Below are positions 28,155 to 36,939 of a stretch of 64,000 nucleotides of DNA, in pieces. Below the pieces are notes generated by a model, which was not told the origin of the DNA, made no database searches, and saw nothing but the letters and a program-made list of their open reading frames with translations. Every line of letters begins with the position of its first letter. The first letter of the stretch is position 1. Source of the DNA: Planctomycetota bacterium (GTDB lineage: Bacteria > Planctomycetota > UBA1135 > GCA-002748355); assembly GCA_027021385.1 (NCBI GenBank), contig JALUUL010000076.1, positions 1 through 64,000 on the forward strand. The letters are read 5' to 3'. The position numbers were made by a program, and so were the translations under genes.

Positions 28155-28229
28155 TGGCTACCCGGCCTGGACTCGAACCAGAACTAGGAGTACCAAAAAC
28201 TCCTGTGCTACCGCTTACACCACCGGGTA
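28155..28229 (-). tRNA. tRNA-Gln (anticodon UUG)
   Basis: 75 nt including an encoded CCA. Acceptor stem UACCCGG/CCGGGUA with U1-A72 as usual for tRNA-Gln, discriminator G, and anticodon stem GGAGU/ACUCC around loop UUUUGGU, giving UUG. T-arm contains GGUUCGAGUCC. It shares about 20 identical bases of the T-arm region with the neighbouring tRNA-Gln, so one arose from the other by duplication. Confidence 0.93.
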
Positions 28230-28303: not shown

Positions 28304-28378
28304 TGGTTACCCCGCCTGGACTCGAACCAGAACTAGAAGAACCAGAATCTTCTGTGCTACCGATTACACCACGGGGTA
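28304..28378 (-). tRNA. tRNA-Gln (anticodon CUG)
   Basis: 75 nt with encoded CCA. Acceptor stem UACCCCG/CGGGGUA, discriminator A, and anticodon stem GAAGA/UCUUC around loop UUCUGGU, giving CUG. First of the two tRNA-Gln genes in transcription order; 74 bases separate it from the UUG gene. The pair covers both glutamine codons, with CUG matching the CAG codon favoured by this GC-rich genome. Confidence 0.93.
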
Positions 28379-29295: not shown

Positions 29296-31401
29296 TCAGC
29301 GGAACCGGAGGCTCACGGGGTTCGAGGGGGTCCCCGAGAGGCCGGGTCCGTCGAAGACATAGGCCGCGCACTCGAGGCTCCGTCCCCGGAGGACCGTGGG
29401 CAGGGGGCCCCCCAGGACCGACCAGACGACGCGGGGGGCGGCCTCGCCCCGGGCGTCCAGCACCGAGACGAAGCCCGGCAGGAAGGGGCTGTTCGCGAGG
29501 GAGATGAAGACCCAGGTCGAGGCGTCGGGCTTGACCGGGAGGGTGCCGCCCGGGAGGGGGAGGCCGGGGGCCCTTCCGGAGAGGCCGAGCAGGCAGAGCG
29601 CGACCTTGCCGGCGCGCGCGGCCCCGCCGCGGATCCCGAGTGTCCAGGTCAGGGGCTTGCTCGTGAAGACGTTCACCCGGTCCGCGACGAGTCCCACGCC
29701 GCGCCGCGCCCGCACCGGGAGTTCGAGCCAGGACGCGGTCGTTCCCGAGCCGTGGGCGATCGAAAGGGAGCCGGAGACGAAGTAGGGGGCTGTCACGATC
29801 CTCTTCTGGTTCGGGTATTCCCGGATCCAGTGATTCTGGACCTCGAGTTCGAGTACCGTCTTCTTCGGGAGGACGCAGGCGATCGGGGACAGGGTGATCG
29901 CGACCCGCTCCCCGACCCTCGGTGTCCGGCCCAGGAGCCCCCTGGCCCAACCGGCGAGGAACATGCGCTTCGTCGAACCTGGAACGGTCGCGAAGAGCTG
30001 GCCGTGGATCGTGTAGCGGTTCGTCGTGGGGGTGACGTGGAGCGAAAGGCGGGGGTTGCCGCAGAGTTCGATCTCGGACGCGAGGGGGGCCGTCTTGAAG
30101 ATCCGTCTAGAGAGGGGGATCTTCGAGAGGATCACGCTGTCGGTGCGCCGGCTCTTCGAGGAGAGGAAGACCGAGGGCGTGTACCCCGGGGTGACCTTGT
30201 GCGTCAGGATCGTCGGGGATCCGGGGGTCGGAGGTTTCCAGACCAGGCCGCCCGCGGCGGAGAGGAAGACGCGGGCGGGCTTGACGTCCTTCGGCGGGAA
30301 CGCCGAATCGTAGCGGTGGGACCAGAGGGTCCGAACCGAGGACCAGGCCGCGGGAAGGAGGGGCATGATCCCCGGCGTCGACCGCGCCTCGAGCTCGACC
30401 CCGTTGCGGATTCCCCATAGGTAGCGGTCCAGGAAACGGAGCCGTTCCTCGGAGACGAGAAGGGATTCCATCCAGTTCCCGGGGGAGCCGTGGCCCCCCG
30501 TCGAAAGAGTCATCGTGGTCAGGCTCTTCCGCTGCTGGACGATGTGCACGAGTTCGTGCGGGGTCTGGATCCCGTCGGTGTAGGCCATGTGGACCCGGAC
30601 GGGGACCGTGCTCTGGAGGAGATAGGGGGTGACCGCCCGATCGGGATCCGTCGTCAACCACTTGTACAGGGAGATCGGGTCCTGGTTCACGAAGGCCGTC
30701 CGGATGCGGGTCTTGAGGCTCGGATCCAGGACGGCGGAGGTGAAGGTGAGGAAGCGCTCGAGGGCGTCCATCGAGAAGAGCGTGCCTCCCCGCAGCATGT
30801 GGTCGATGGCGTCGGGAATGAAGGCCCGCGGAACCGCGCAGTCGACCTTCGGGAAGGCGATCGTGCCCCTTCCCTTGATCGTGATCGTGCGGCCCGAATA
30901 GGCGGCGGCGAACCAGGAATGGATGCCTCCCTGGCTTCCTCCGGTGACCGCGAGCTTGTTGGGGTCCACGAGGCCCCGCCATTTCTTTCGGACGAAGGCG
31001 ACGACTTCGGCGAGATCGTATTTCTCGGTCGCGCCGTAGAAGGTCATGCCCATCGTGGGAGGATTCAGTTTTTTCGCGTCGCCTTGGCCCCGCACGTCGA
31101 AGGTCGCGACCGCGAAACCCTGCGAGGCGAGACCCCGCTGGATCGAACGCTTGCCGCTGTAGCCGTGCACGAAGACGACGAGCGGCCAACCGCAGGCGGG
31201 CTTCCCCGTCGTCGGCCAGGTCAGGTTCACGAGGGTCTTGTAGCCGTCCGCGTAGGTCAGGGGGTTGTCGATCGAGTAGGTCGTGGGGAAGCCGAGCGAA
31301 GGCGGGACGGGCTTCGCGCACTGGGCGCGGAGTCCGGTCGTGGAGAGGAGGACGGCCCCCGGGAGGACCCGGAGGAGGGGAGAGAGGGGAATCGTGCGCA
31401 T
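29296..31401 (-). CDS. Secreted alpha/beta hydrolase, CocE/X-Pro dipeptidyl-peptidase type
   Basis: 701 residues. Signal peptide ends near G-L-R-A-Q (about 27). The catalytic domain has V-V-F-V-H-G-Y-S-G near the oxyanion region, the nucleophile in T-G-G-S-Q-G-G, and a possible acid/His pair near A-Y-T-D-G and T-G-G-H-G-S. A beta-rich domain at about 370-560 resembles the jelly-roll C-terminal domain of CocE/PepX hydrolases, and a further lineage-type beta domain follows to the end. It likely hydrolyses peptides or esters outside the membrane. It follows the propeller gene on the same strand, with a strong hairpin between. Confidence 0.75.
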   Translation of the reverse strand: MRTIPLSPLLRVLPGAVLLSTTGLRAQCAKPVPPSLGFPTTYSIDNPLTYADGYKTLVNLTWPTTGKPACGWPLVVFVHGYSGKRSIQRGLASQGFAVATFDVRGQGDAKKLNPPTMGMTFYGATEKYDLAEVVAFVRKKWRGLVDPNKLAVTGGSQGGIHSWFAAAYSGRTITIKGRGTIAFPKVDCAVPRAFIPDAIDHMLRGGTLFSMDALERFLTFTSAVLDPSLKTRIRTAFVNQDPISLYKWLTTDPDRAVTPYLLQSTVPVRVHMAYTDGIQTPHELVHIVQQRKSLTTMTLSTGGHGSPGNWMESLLVSEERLRFLDRYLWGIRNGVELEARSTPGIMPLLPAAWSSVRTLWSHRYDSAFPPKDVKPARVFLSAAGGLVWKPPTPGSPTILTHKVTPGYTPSVFLSSKSRRTDSVILSKIPLSRRIFKTAPLASEIELCGNPRLSLHVTPTTNRYTIHGQLFATVPGSTKRMFLAGWARGLLGRTPRVGERVAITLSPIACVLPKKTVLELEVQNHWIREYPNQKRIVTAPYFVSGSLSIAHGSGTTASWLELPVRARRGVGLVADRVNVFTSKPLTWTLGIRGGAARAGKVALCLLGLSGRAPGLPLPGGTLPVKPDASTWVFISLANSPFLPGFVSVLDARGEAAPRVVWSVLGGPLPTVLRGRSLECAAYVFDGPGLSGTPSNPVSLRFR

Positions 31402-31484: not shown

Positions 31485-31516
31485 CCCGGTCCCGAAAACC
31501 AAAGCCCGGGACCGGG
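31485..31516 (-). terminator. Strong hairpin between the propeller and hydrolase genes
   Basis: CCCGGTCCCG at 31485-31494 and CGGGACCGGG at 31507-31516 form a perfect 10-bp stem around a 12-base loop. It starts 10 bases after the propeller stop codon on the minus strand. No T-run follows. A terminator or mRNA-end structure is likely, which would make the propeller gene a single-gene unit under the riboswitch. Confidence 0.45.
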
Positions 31517-31525
31517 TCCTCCCAG

Positions 31526-32893
31526 CTACCGCACCTGGACCGTCGTGGGCGTGCTCGTGAACCAGGGTGAGGGGGGCGTTCCTCCGGGCAAGCCCCGGAG
31601 CGGGCCGGCCAGAACCTGCGTCGTCCAGCGGATTCCCCTCGTGGACGGTGCCTTCACGGAAAAGCGGGCAACCCCCAGGGCGTTCACACGCCCGACGACG
31701 ACGAGGAGGGGCAGGGTCGGCACGATGCCGAAATCGGGGAACGCGAGCCCTCCCGCCCCGAGAGGTGCGAAGGCCATCTCCGGGGTCCGGCCGGTTCCGA
31801 ACATCCAGACGGCGAGACCCGCCCCTTTCATCCCCGAGGCCGTGAAGGTGAGAGCCCGGCCGGGCGCGGGCGTGGAGGAGGGAACGACCGAGAGAGCGGG
31901 GCGGGCGGGCTCGAACACGACGAGGAGGTTCGTTCCCGTGTAGTTCCCGGCCAGTGCGAAGATCCGGGATCCGGGGGAGCCGAAACGCTCGAAGGGCCGG
32001 GTCCCCTCCGAGAAGGCGATTCCGCTCAGCGAGAGCCCGGGCAGGGAGAGGAGTCCCTTCGCAAAACTCCCGCCCTTCGGGCCGACCTCGAGAAGGCTCG
32101 AAGTCTTCGAAGTCCCGTCGGTCAGGTAGAAGGTTCCCTGGCCGTCGATCACGAAGTCGCGGGCGTTGTCGAAGGCCTTCACGAAGAGGCGGGCTTCCTT
32201 CTCCCGGAGGACGCCGGGGCCGATGGCTCCGAGGACCTTCGCGGCAGGCCAGCGGAGCACGCGCCCGAGTCCGGGTTTTCCGAAACTCAGCGGTGCCGGG
32301 GCGGTGTAGAGGTTTCCCCGGTGGTCGAAGGCCAGAGGTCCGGACCATCCGGTCTCCTCGGCGATCAGGTCCGTGCCGCCCGTCAGGGTGTCGATGCGGT
32401 AGACCTGCGTCCGGCTCCCGGTGTTGGGTTTCGCGGTCGCGTACAGGAAGCGTTCCCCCTCGATCGGGTGGAAGGCGAGGTCGTAGTGGAGCTGGAGGCG
32501 GGCGAAGCGTCTGAGGCTCTTGCGTGCGAGGTCGAAGGCGTACAGAGCGCCGGTGCTGGATTCCCCGAAATAAAGGACGCGCTTCGAGGGGCCCAGGACG
32601 ATCGACGTGCCCCAGGCGGCGGCCGAGAGGCGGACCAGGGTCTGGACGATCCTTCCGGTCGAAGGGTCGAGGGCGAGGAGGTTCTGTCCGTCGAAGAGGG
32701 CGATCCTCCCGTCGGGGAGGACCTCGGGCCCGGTCCAGGACTTGGTCGGCTTGGGCAGGGTGATGGTGCGGGCCCGGAACCCGGGAACTACGGAGGGACT
32801 CTGGGCGGGAACGGAGGCGGCGGGCAGGACGATCGCGGCGAGGACCGCGGGAAGGGTGCGACCGCGGTGCGCGGTGCGTGCGTGCGACTTCAT
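31526..32893 (-). CDS. Secreted propeller-like protein under cobalamin riboswitch control
   Basis: 455 residues. Long signal peptide ending in S-V-P-A-Q (about 31). Repeated blade-like units follow: V-L-P-D-G-R-I-A-L-F-D-G, V-L-Y-F-G-E-S-S-T-G-A-L-Y-A-F-D, A-F-D-H-R-G-N-L-Y, F-V-I-D-G-Q-G-T-F-Y-L-T-D-G, as in NHL/SMP30-type propellers. A C-terminal beta domain (about 350-455) is of the lineage type seen in other exported proteins here. No catalytic motif. A cobalamin riboswitch ends about 45 bases before the ATG, so expression should depend on B12. The simplest reading is a surface or periplasmic B12-capture protein analogous to Bacteroides BtuG, also a propeller. That role is inferred from regulation and fold only. 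Confidence 0.7.
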   Translation of the reverse strand: MKSHARTAHRGRTLPAVLAAIVLPAASVPAQSPSVVPGFRARTITLPKPTKSWTGPEVLPDGRIALFDGQNLLALDPSTGRIVQTLVRLSAAAWGTSIVLGPSKRVLYFGESSTGALYAFDLARKSLRRFARLQLHYDLAFHPIEGERFLYATAKPNTGSRTQVYRIDTLTGGTDLIAEETGWSGPLAFDHRGNLYTAPAPLSFGKPGLGRVLRWPAAKVLGAIGPGVLREKEARLFVKAFDNARDFVIDGQGTFYLTDGTSKTSSLLEVGPKGGSFAKGLLSLPGLSLSGIAFSEGTRPFERFGSPGSRIFALAGNYTGTNLLVVFEPARPALSVVPSSTPAPGRALTFTASGMKGAGLAVWMFGTGRTPEMAFAPLGAGGLAFPDFGIVPTLPLLVVVGRVNALGVARFSVKAPSTRGIRWTTQVLAGPLRGLPGGTPPSPWFTSTPTTVQVR

Positions 32894-32937
32894 TTCCTTC
32901 TCCTCGGGAAATGGGTTGCGGCGTCGCGGAAGTCCCG

Positions 32938-33105
32938 ACGGGGTGTTCTGGCTCGCGATTCATCCTCCACGGGCGGCCTTCCCGGGCTCCTTCCTCCGAG
33001 GAAATCGCCCAGTGGCGGGCCTGTAGGGGCCCCACCCGTTTCGTCCTCGCTCACAGCGGCGGGCCCGCGCCGGATTCACACCGGACTTCCCACCGATCGA
33101 GCTTC
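32938..33105 (-). promoter_or_regulatory. Cobalamin riboswitch
   Basis: On the minus strand the conserved core appears in order: GGUGGGAAGUCCGGUG (about 33094-33079), GAAUCCGG, GCGGGCCCGCCGCUGUGA (about 33068-33051), GCCACUGG (about 33017-33010), CGGGAAGGC (about 32983-32975), GGAUGAAUC (about 32966-32958) and the B12 box AGCCAGAACACC (about 32953-32942). These match the adenosyl/hydroxocobalamin riboswitch family point by point. Usual effect: repression of the downstream gene when cobalamin is bound. The sequence between it and the ATG contains GGGACTTCC, which can pair with GGAAGTCC at the 5' side, a possible switching helix, plus GAGGAGAAGGAA as ribosome site. Confidence 0.95.
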
Positions 33106-33188: not shown

Positions 33189-33266
33189 TGGTCGGGCAGC
33201 GGGGATTCGAACCCCGGACCTTCGGCTCCCAAAGCCGACGCGCTAGCCAAGCTGCGCCACTGCCCG
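33189..33266 (-). tRNA. tRNA-Pro (anticodon UGG)
   Basis: 78 nt including an encoded CCA. Acceptor stem CGGGCAG/CUGCCCG with discriminator A; anticodon stem UCGGC/GCCGA around loop UUUGGGA, giving UGG; T-arm GGGGUUCGAAUCCCC. It sits upstream of the riboswitch on the same strand. Confidence 0.95.
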
Positions 33267-33551: not shown

Positions 33552-36500
33552 TTAGACCCGTTCGAGTCCGTAGCGGAGGGTTCCTCCGGCGAGTTCCACC
33601 GAGCGGACTCCGTCCTCGGGTGCTCCACGACGGAGTTCGAGGCAGAGGGTCTGCTCGCGGATCCAGGCCTCGTGCCGCTCGAGGACCGGAAGGAGACCCT
33701 CAGGAGGATCCAGCGTCAGGCGGATCCGGTCGCCCACCGCGAAGCCGGCCTCCTTGCGCGCCTGCTGGATCAGCCGGACCAGGTCCCGGGCGAGTCCCTC
33801 GAGTTCGAGGTCCTCGTCGATGTCCGCATCGAGGATGACGAGGGTGCGGTTGCCCGGGAGGGCCTGGCAGAGGACCCCTTCCTTCGGGTCGAGCCGGATC
33901 TCGGACTCCCCTTCCTCGAGGACCCGCCCCCCGACCTCGATCCTTCCGTCGTCCCGTTTCCTCCAGTCGCCGCGCTTCGCGGCTGCGAGGACGGATTTCA
34001 TGTCCTTGCCGAGCCTGGGGCCCGCGACCTTCGCGTGGACCGCGAGGCGGAAATGGGCGTAGGGCTCGAACTCCGAATCTAGGCGAACCTCCTTGACGTT
34101 GACCTCGTCGCGGATCAGATCGAGGAAGGCTTCGAGCCCCTCGAGATCGTGTCCGGCGACGGTCAGGAGGGACAGGGGTTGGCGGACCCGGATGTCGGAC
34201 TTGCGCCGGAGGGCGAGGCCCGCCGAGCAGACCGCGCGGACGCGGTCCATACCTTCGACGAGGAGCGGATCCTCGGGAAGATCCGAAACCTCCGGCCAGT
34301 CGGCGAGGTGCACGCTACGTTCTCCGGTCAGGCCGCGGTAGACCTCCTCCGCGAGGAAGGGGAGGAAGGGGGCAGCGACCTTGCACAGGGTTACGAGGAC
34401 GGTGAAGAGGGTGTCGAAGGCGTCCCGGTCCGGTTCGCCCCCCTCTTCGTTCCAGAACCGCCCGCGGCTCCGGCGCACGTACCAGTTGTTCAAGGCGTCC
34501 AGGAAGGAGGCCAGGCGTTCGCAGGCGGCGGGTATGTCGTAGCGGTCGAGTTCCGTTTCGACCTCGAGGACCAGGTTTTTCGTCTTGCAGAGGATGTAGC
34601 GGTCGAGGACCGCCTCCGAATCGCCGCGGAACGCGGCCTTCACGCCGTCCGCGTTCGCGTACAGCGTGAAGAAGTAGTAGGCGTTCCAGATCGGGTTCAG
34701 GACCCTTCGAAGGGATTCTCCGATGGCCTTCCCCTCGTGGTCGATCTGGAGGTCGTTCCCCTTGAGGATCGGAGAGGACATCAGGAACCAGCGCAGCGCG
34801 TCCGAGCCCTTCGTCGCGAAGACTTCCTCGGGGCTCGGGTAGTTCTTGAGCCTCTTGCTCAGTTTCTGGCCGTTCTCGTCGAGGACGACTCCGTGGCAGA
34901 TGACGTTGCGGAAAGGCGGCCGATCGAAGAGGGCGGTGGCGAGCACCATCATCGTGTAGAACCAGCCGCGCGTCTGGGCCTGGTACTCGACGATGAAGTC
35001 GGCCGGAAAGTGGTTCTCGAACCATTCCCGGTTCTCGACCGGATAGTGGACCTGGGCGTAGGGCATTGATCCCGACTCGAACCAGCAATCGAGCACGTCT
35101 GGGATCCTCCGCATCCTGCTCTTGCCGGAAGGGTCGTCGGGGTTCGGCCTGGTGAGTTCGTCGATGGCCGGTCTGTGGAGGTCCTTGGGCCGGACTCCGA
35201 AGTCCCGCTCGATCTCGTCCAGGCTCCCGTAGACGTCGACCCTCGGAAACTCGGGATCGTCGCTCTTCCAGACCGGGATCGGCGCCCCCCAGAAGCGATT
35301 TCGGCTGATCGACCAGTCCCGAGCGCCCTCGAGCCATTTCCCGAAGAGTCCGTCCCGGACGTGCGCGGGAATCCAACGGATCCCCCGATTGAGTTCCACC
35401 ATCCGGTCGCGGATGGCCGTCACCTTGACGTACCAGGAGCTCATCGCCTTGTAGATCAGGGGCTGGTCCGTGCGCCAGCAGTGCGGGTAGCTGTGGACGT
35501 AGGTCTCGTGGCGGAGTATGCGGCCCTCTTCCTTCAGGTCCCGGATGATCTGCTTGTTCGCGTCGAAGACGAGCATGCCGGCGTAGGGAGGGACCTCGCC
35601 GGTGAATTTCCCCGTGCGGTCGACTGGGCAGACGACATCGATCCCGTGCGCCTTGCACAGCTCCATGTCGTCCTCGCCGAATCCGGGGGCCATGTGGACG
35701 ATTCCGGTGCCGTCCTCGGTCGTCACGAAATCCCCGGCGAGGACGACGAAGGCCCCTTCGCGGCCGGCGAAGAACGGGAAGAGGGGGGCGTATCGACGTC
35801 CGGCCAGGTCGCGGCCCTTGCAGGAGCCTACGCGCCGCGCGCCGTCCAGTTCCCGGTCGTAGCGGGCGACCGCCTCCTCCGCGAGGACGAGGCGGCGGTC
35901 GTCCTTCTCGAGGATCGCGTAGTCGATGTCCGGTCCGACCGCGAGGGCGAGGTTGGAGGGCAGGGTCCACGGCGTCGTCGTCCAGGCGAGGAGATCGAGG
36001 GGGCCGCCGTCGCCCTCCCTGGGTTCGAGCGAGAAACGGACGGTCAAGGCCGGGTCCTGCCTGTCCCGGTAGGAGTCGTCGAGGCGGGTCTCGAAGTTGG
36101 AGAGCGGGGTTTCGGCCGCCCAGGAATACGGCAGGACGCGGGTACCCTCGTAGAGGAGGCCCTTGTCCCAGAGGGCCTTGAAGGCCCACATGACGCTCTC
36201 CATGTAGGAGAGGTCCATCGTCTTGTAATCGTGTTCGAAATCGACCCAGCGCGCCTGCCGGGTGACGAAGCGTTTCCACTCCTGCGTGTACTTGAGTACG
36301 GATTTCCGGCAGAAGTCGTTGAAGCGGTCGAGACCGTAGGCGGCGATCTCGGCGTGGCCCGAGATTCCGAGTTCGCGTTCGGCCTCCATCTCGGCCGGAA
36401 GGCCGTGGCAGTCCCAGCCGAAGCGCCGCTCGACGCGGCGGCCCTTCATCGTCTGGTACCTGGGGATCAGGTCCTTGACGTAGCCGGTCAGGAGGTGGCC

Positions 36501-36704
36501 GTAGTGGGGAAGGCCGTTCGCGAACGGAGGCCCGTCGTAGAAGACGAACTCGTTCCCGCCGCCCTCTCCGGCCGGCCGTCCCTCGACCGAGGCGCGGAAG
36601 GTCCCGTCCCGTTCCCAGGAATCGAGGATCCGGGCCTCGATCTCTGGGTAGTCCGGCTGCTGGGGGACTTCGGGATAGGGGCGTTCCTCGTCGTTTCCGG
36701 TCAT
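33552..36704 (-). CDS. ileS: Isoleucine-tRNA ligase, type 2 (eukaryote-like)
   Basis: 1050 residues from ATG at 36704, with GGAG 8-9 bases upstream. Charges tRNA-Ile. Class I marks: P-P-F-A-N-G-L-P-H-Y-G-H (HIGH-type, 59-70) and K-L-S-K-R (614-618), followed by L-K-N-Y-P-S-P. The editing domain (CP1) has T-T-P-W-T-L-P-S-N. The C-terminus lacks the zinc-binding cysteines of type 1 bacterial enzymes, and the length and K-L-S-K-R-L-K-N-Y-P signature fit the type 2 form associated with resistance to mupirocin. A longer upstream reading adds only low-complexity residues. Confidence 0.95.
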   Translation of the reverse strand: MTGNDEERPYPEVPQQPDYPEIEARILDSWERDGTFRASVEGRPAGEGGGNEFVFYDGPPFANGLPHYGHLLTGYVKDLIPRYQTMKGRRVERRFGWDCHGLPAEMEAERELGISGHAEIAAYGLDRFNDFCRKSVLKYTQEWKRFVTRQARWVDFEHDYKTMDLSYMESVMWAFKALWDKGLLYEGTRVLPYSWAAETPLSNFETRLDDSYRDRQDPALTVRFSLEPREGDGGPLDLLAWTTTPWTLPSNLALAVGPDIDYAILEKDDRRLVLAEEAVARYDRELDGARRVGSCKGRDLAGRRYAPLFPFFAGREGAFVVLAGDFVTTEDGTGIVHMAPGFGEDDMELCKAHGIDVVCPVDRTGKFTGEVPPYAGMLVFDANKQIIRDLKEEGRILRHETYVHSYPHCWRTDQPLIYKAMSSWYVKVTAIRDRMVELNRGIRWIPAHVRDGLFGKWLEGARDWSISRNRFWGAPIPVWKSDDPEFPRVDVYGSLDEIERDFGVRPKDLHRPAIDELTRPNPDDPSGKSRMRRIPDVLDCWFESGSMPYAQVHYPVENREWFENHFPADFIVEYQAQTRGWFYTMMVLATALFDRPPFRNVICHGVVLDENGQKLSKRLKNYPSPEEVFATKGSDALRWFLMSSPILKGNDLQIDHEGKAIGESLRRVLNPIWNAYYFFTLYANADGVKAAFRGDSEAVLDRYILCKTKNLVLEVETELDRYDIPAACERLASFLDALNNWYVRRSRGRFWNEEGGEPDRDAFDTLFTVLVTLCKVAAPFLPFLAEEVYRGLTGERSVHLADWPEVSDLPEDPLLVEGMDRVRAVCSAGLALRRKSDIRVRQPLSLLTVAGHDLEGLEAFLDLIRDEVNVKEVRLDSEFEPYAHFRLAVHAKVAGPRLGKDMKSVLAAAKRGDWRKRDDGRIEVGGRVLEEGESEIRLDPKEGVLCQALPGNRTLVILDADIDEDLELEGLARDLVRLIQQARKEAGFAVGDRIRLTLDPPEGLLPVLERHEAWIREQTLCLELRRGAPEDGVRSVELAGGTLRYGLERV

Positions 36705-36939
36705 CACGAGACTCCGGGCAATGGATTCCGCCGGCGTTAAGGGCCGCCGCCCGGGGGGACCCCGCGGGCGAAGGGGAAGGATCGTAGCGGGGGACCGGCT
36801 CCTTCCAAAGGTCCGGGAGGCCGCGCCGGTCCGTGGCGGGAGCGGAGCCGGCCGTTCCTCCATGGCCCGCGGGGCCGATTCCGGCTATGAATCCCGGGTC
36901 GGATCCGTGTCTGGATCCGGTTTCGAGAGGGAGGTCGAC

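Follow-up and report, generated by a model that had tools for sequence, protein, structure and literature searches.

Cobalamin-riboswitch control of an exported propeller protein in a planctomycete order: a candidate corrinoid-capture component

B12 capture in B12-dependent bacteria outside Bacteroides and Proteobacteria is poorly known. Among the described systems, BtuG is a seven-bladed propeller (PMC6143338, PMC10404256), and BtuG2 of Bacteroides thetaiotaomicron (PDB 3DSM) is a surface lipoprotein that adjoins btuB and is reported only from Bacteroidetes (PMC6143338, PMC10404256). Binders of a second type are represented by BtuH and the H-domain of BtuG1 (PDB 7BIZ, 8BLW; PMC8941943, PMC10404256), and the BtuJ/DUF4465 proteins are accessory extracytoplasmic B12 binders that are riboswitch-regulated in B. 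thetaiotaomicron (PMC13398666). In the open-licence literature, we found no paper joining cobalamin riboswitches, propellers of the kind described below and planctomycetes. Here, we analyze a locus in a 64-kb stretch of planctomycete DNA (the window, 64,000 nucleotides in all) and compare it with its counterparts in the 61 genomes of its order and beyond.

A cobalamin riboswitch in front of an exported propeller gene

A preliminary description of this DNA had placed a cobalamin riboswitch about 45 bases before an exported protein with propeller-like repeats. A covariance search of the 64-kb window bore out the riboswitch, with an RF00174 match at 32942-33091 on the minus strand (66.3 bits, gathering score 31.5, E 3.6e-14). 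The distance from the aptamer end to the ATG of a 455-aa ORF is 48 nt, so the closeness of the two elements stood while the exact figure did not. The B12 box reads GAGCCAGAACACC, and the conserved core, this box included, lies on the coding strand, upstream of the propeller gene. The features of the locus are as follows.

32942..33091, minus strand: cobalamin riboswitch aptamer, RF00174 model positions 46-168; the same element precedes homologues
32894..32941, minus strand: leader of 48 nt from aptamer to start codon, containing the Shine-Dalgarno sequence GAGGAG (32905-32900)
32884..32927, minus strand: candidate hairpin that would mask the ribosome site, GCGAC (32927-32923) being complementary to GTCGC (32888-32884, codons 2-4)
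31526..32893, minus strand: gene of the exported 455-aa protein (P0001), ATG start; signal peptide, propeller and C-terminal beta domain
31506..31525, minus strand: weak terminator-like stem directly after the propeller stop codon (3 such stems found, 1.6 expected by chance)

Folding energies of the RNA at the locus were no better than those of shuffled sequences; we therefore dropped folding energy as evidence, leaving the covariance model as the basis of the riboswitch call. The aptamer match also covers none of the outer model positions (1-45 and 169-189). Together with the non-significant folding z-score, this could be read as a degenerate relic, or as a riboswitch that serves another gene with the propeller as a passenger. 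Such readings are highly improbable: the match reaches 66 bits and its B12 box is intact, a start codon with a good Shine-Dalgarno sequence follows on the same strand after 48 nt, and the riboswitch-propeller pair is conserved, whereas the relatives examined do not keep the downstream gene next to the propeller. That gene (29296-31401, minus strand) encodes an exported alpha/beta-hydrolase with a PepX_C-like part; it was rejected as a member of the unit because it does not adjoin the propeller in other loci examined, and no C-terminal domain common to P0001 and the hydrolase was detected. Upstream of the riboswitch lie a tRNA-Pro gene (33189-33266) and then ileS (33552-36863). Elsewhere in the window, two tRNA-Gln genes (ttg and ctg) adjoin each other on the minus strand (28155-28229 and 28304-28378).

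Within the leader, GAGGAG lies 6 nt before the ATG, and no terminator-like site was found on the coding strand of these 48 nt, which hints that translational control is the likelier mode for this riboswitch. The candidate hairpin encloses both the Shine-Dalgarno sequence and the ATG, and its pairing might mask the ribosome site. The GCGAC/GTCGC pair occurs in 5 of the 7 leaders aligned (the window leader among them) and is invariant where present, so that no covariation signal is possible; its folding z-score is 0.60, so energy alone gives no support. The weak stem after the stop codon is compatible with a single-gene transcript.

The N-terminus of P0001, MKSHARTAHRGRTLPAVLAAIVLPAASVPAQS, reads as a signal peptide (approximately residues 1-31), and its sequence shows no lipobox cysteine after this peptide. 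P0001 matched nothing in Pfam, NCBIfam or the PDB sequences, and a Pfam search across 46 aligned family members gave a single weak match, a propeller repeat, in one member. AlphaFold2 with the 46-member alignment yielded a beta-propeller (approximately residues 39-337) followed by a C-terminal beta domain (approximately 340-455), with pLDDT 90.1 and pTM 0.87. This model, and best Foldseek matches that are themselves propellers, agree with the propeller-like repeats noted before. DSSP lists 24 propeller strands, from 39-45 to 322-329, and we read this strand list, rather than the coordinates, as six predicted blades of four strands, in which the first strand completes the last blade. The best PDB folds found by Foldseek were six-bladed (strictosidine synthase, the RPA3624 lactonase, SMP30 and Drp35; TM on target mostly 0.62-0.69), while the seven-bladed YncE scored lower (0.52-0.55).

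Several of these six-bladed folds belong to enzymes, and DFPase and Drp35 are weak matches of the family profile, raising the possibility that the propeller is not a capture protein and acts instead as a secreted corrinoid enzyme or chaperone (for example, a hydrolase or a remodelling factor for cobamides or B12-carrier complexes). We consider this unlikely, as Pfam gave no SGL or related match in the 46 members beyond the one weak propeller hit; conserved residues, which include G182, S184, G185, P186 and D250, were not seen to reproduce a metal tetrad; and, in sequence, the family lies no further from six-bladed NHL/LRP propellers, which are pure ligand binders, than from these enzymes. Membership of the SGL/SMP30 family was itself rejected, with no Pfam SGL match in either P0001 or the 46 members.

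Taken alone, the C-terminal region (profile positions 320-434) finds further proteins of the phylum, and some family members, for example in G172 or G122, match over the propeller part only; the C-terminal beta domain is thus likely a separable envelope module. Its occurrence in other proteins of the phylum points to a general build of exported proteins, as would be expected if P0001 had a structural or adhesive role in the envelope, being made in a B12-sparing response and never coming into contact with corrinoids. This is still less probable than an enzyme, since riboswitch control is kept across very divergent members, their operons hold btuCDF or BtuH homologues, and the other riboswitch targets checked are mostly B12 transport or salvage genes, as set out below.

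Conservation of the pairing and its operon partners

The preliminary description had proposed a survey of whether homologues keep the riboswitch upstream, and they do. Single-sequence searches identified propeller homologues in 30 of the 61 genomes, an unbiased set found by protein alone, and RF00174 lies upstream in 29 of these 30. Adding profile hits in riboswitch loci, which were found by looking behind riboswitches, brought the count to 39 genomes, 38 of which carry RF00174 upstream on the same strand (within 400 nt in 34), a few of these elements scoring below gathering. Random placement would give this pairing in 0.003 genomes, a figure to be read with the genomes being related and hence non-independent; the pairing recurs in several of the order's families, with propeller identities of 20-30%. 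In the sole exception within the order (G009), the stretch from the contig end to the propeller is taken up by a BtuH-like gene. Outside the order, in a survey across the phylum, RF00174 lies directly upstream of the propeller, or upstream of a two-gene operon, at 21 of the 26 loci examined, and four of the remaining five loci are cut by a contig end. A second propeller copy in G252 (L158) lacks a riboswitch, and here the absence is real. It is nearly certain that the window protein is an exported propeller belonging to the B12 regulon.

Operon partners of the propeller tie it to known B12 uptake genes. One operon (G045) reads on a single strand as riboswitch, FecCD permease (btuC), ABC ATPase (btuD), BtuF-type binding protein and propeller, and the same layout of riboswitch-btuC-btuD-btuF-propeller, which belongs to a single genus, was found in G021 and G027. 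In G356, the propeller is followed by two BtuF-type proteins. In G341, from another lineage, the order is riboswitch, propeller and then a BtuH homologue, for which the PDB search at E <= 0.01 gave 8blw (BtuG1 H-domain, E 3.2e-20) and 7biz (BtuH2, E 2.5e-12) and no other entry. This protein belongs to an order-wide family (family B, alignment A2) by a non-iterated profile at E 1.4e-19, and the order-level family-B profile in turn reaches 8blw at E 1.6e-5, indicating by sequence that family B is related to BtuH and the BtuG1 H-domain. A Foldseek search with the family-B model did not return 7biz or 8blw (BtuH, BtuG1) among the first 50 matches. Family B is present in 12 of the 61 genomes, with RF00174 in front in all except G009, where the contig ends; it shares operons with the propeller in three loci (L037, L154 and L162) and is adjacent to it in three more (L051, L150 and L151).

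Further observations concern the neighbourhoods of the propeller. Two family-B proteins (L150:3-908 and L151:3216-3881) end in a PEP-CTERM-like tail, with a PEP motif, a hydrophobic stretch and a basic end, pointing to possible envelope anchoring. Two loci (L141:9344-13597 and L143:1625-6061) encode a giant exported protein of approximately 1400 aa directly behind riboswitch and propeller; in this giant protein, a YVTN-type propeller and a PKD domain are joined to a C-terminal family-B (BtuH-like) domain, an arrangement that recalls BtuG1. In one family (f6; L052:2259-3887, L033:7250-8161), in which the propeller neighbourhood is conserved, a BtuF-like protein seemingly without a signal peptide is encoded near the propeller on the opposite strand, and a 1000-aa protein with CarboxypepD_reg repeats (by Pfam on the L033 copy) follows the propeller; L052 also encodes a protein reading like QueG near the propeller, again on the opposite strand.

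The B12 regulon and a proposed role for the propeller

The genome that holds the window (G000; 3.69 Mb, 93% complete) contains two RF00174 elements. The second scores 31.5 bits, at the threshold, and precedes btuF, btuC and btuD on contig C8; this btuFCD operon is the only other cobalamin-riboswitch target found in the genome, and no FecCD permease other than its btuC was found there. As the preliminary description had stated, the surroundings of the window locus showed neither btuB nor btuFCD, and the TonB-receptor and FecCD hits of the genome lie on other contigs; the partner transporter that it had expected elsewhere corresponds to the C8 operon. Three TonB-dependent receptors were found in the genome; their scores against the BtuB model TIGR01779 are sub-threshold, and none is clearly BtuB. 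Across the 61 genomes, no TonB-dependent receptor (TonB plug) was found near any RF00174 element, and no family-B gene was detected in G000 itself. B12-binding domains are present in G000. CbiC, which we chose as the marker for de novo corrin (B12) synthesis, was found in 0 of the 61 genomes and in 7 of 14 controls, as one marker rather than a test of the full pathway.

The remaining RF00174 targets of the order whose Pfam class was checked are mostly BtuF-type proteins, cobalamin adenosyltransferase and a COG2102-type ATPase with DUF6580; a link of COG2102 to B12 salvage has been reported (PMC3541065). A DUF6580 membrane protein and/or a COG2102-type ATPase (Diphthami_syn_2) lies under riboswitch control at L085:5271-6551, L090:4114-4845 and L092:5131-6500, once with a BtuF-type protein following, and DUF6580 may be a membrane component of corrinoid salvage. 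In other families of the order, the place behind the riboswitch is taken by a YVTN-type propeller (family C, alignment A3), which in PDB sequence searches comes nearest to a surface-layer protein (1l0q), hydrazine synthase beta and YncE. Family C members (L070:5158-6567, L072:4739-6208, L077:4984-6660 and others) occur in relatives in which no window-family gene was found behind the riboswitches. Pfam matches of another target, the 832-aa protein L089 of G008, are confined to DUF7948 and a propeller repeat.

The riboswitch, its conservation, the export signal, the propeller fold, the shared operons with btuCDF and BtuH homologues and the absence of CbiC are all computed features of this system. 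With these in hand, a role for the window propeller in B12 capture or uptake is probable. We hold with similar confidence that it would be produced under B12 scarcity to capture corrinoids outside the cytoplasm, acting like BtuG or BtuH through a different propeller family. That the propeller itself binds corrinoids is a reasonable, though less secure, expectation. Cobalamin riboswitches of B12-uptake genes are generally off switches, and the window riboswitch is presumably one as well.

We infer that the locus would work as a one-gene B12-scavenging unit. When cobalamin is plentiful in the cell, the leader riboswitch would bind it and shut off expression, probably at translation. When B12 is scarce, the cell would make and export the six-bladed propeller, and its C-terminal beta domain may hold it at the cell envelope, perhaps at the cell surface. 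There the propeller would catch corrinoids outside the inner membrane, presumably by direct binding, and pass them into an uptake route ending at BtuF-BtuCD, with a TonB-dependent receptor encoded elsewhere taking the corrinoid from it. A broader version of this proposal, which we favor only slightly, is that the undescribed six-bladed family is a main extracytoplasmic corrinoid catcher of a large group of B12 auxotrophs, having evolved independently of BtuG and working with BtuH-type binders and BtuFCD, while its outer-membrane transporter would not belong to the riboswitch regulon.

Across the order, CbiC was not detected, and almost all genomes found to carry the uncharacterized exported propeller have it under a B12 switch. 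Should the propeller bind corrinoids, B12 capture by propellers would have more than one origin, with six blades here and seven in Bacteroides, and the range of BtuH-type binders would reach well past gut Bacteroidetes.

Comparison with known propellers and B12 binders

In predicted fold and blade number, the window protein resembles the six-bladed SMP30, gluconolactonase, Drp35 and NHL propellers; unlike them, it has no sequence-family match, and its regulation and partners are B12-related. The BtuJ/DUF4465 proteins have a jelly-roll fold in contrast to the propeller of the window protein, which has no DUF4465 match. By sequence, family B is homologous to BtuH and the BtuG1 H-domain, and it is riboswitch-controlled in this order; the window protein itself is not BtuH.

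BtuG was absent from the PDB matches of P0001, which had none, and from the 60 best matches of the family profile, and membership of BtuG was rejected on blade number, sequence, lipobox and btuB neighbour. The window protein differs in having six blades by strand count and a C-terminal beta domain, with no lipobox and no TonB receptor nearby; since it has no lipobox, surface anchoring of the BtuG type does not apply. The B12-capture role first suggested for this protein is supported, with one correction: the riboswitch is real and kept by nearly all homologues, and the protein is not a BtuG homologue and falls in another, six-bladed family. What BtuG and the window family do have in common is a link to btuCDF in some relatives and hosts that, in our reading, import B12, and the window protein shares with BtuG the form of an exported beta-propeller placed under B12 riboswitch control.
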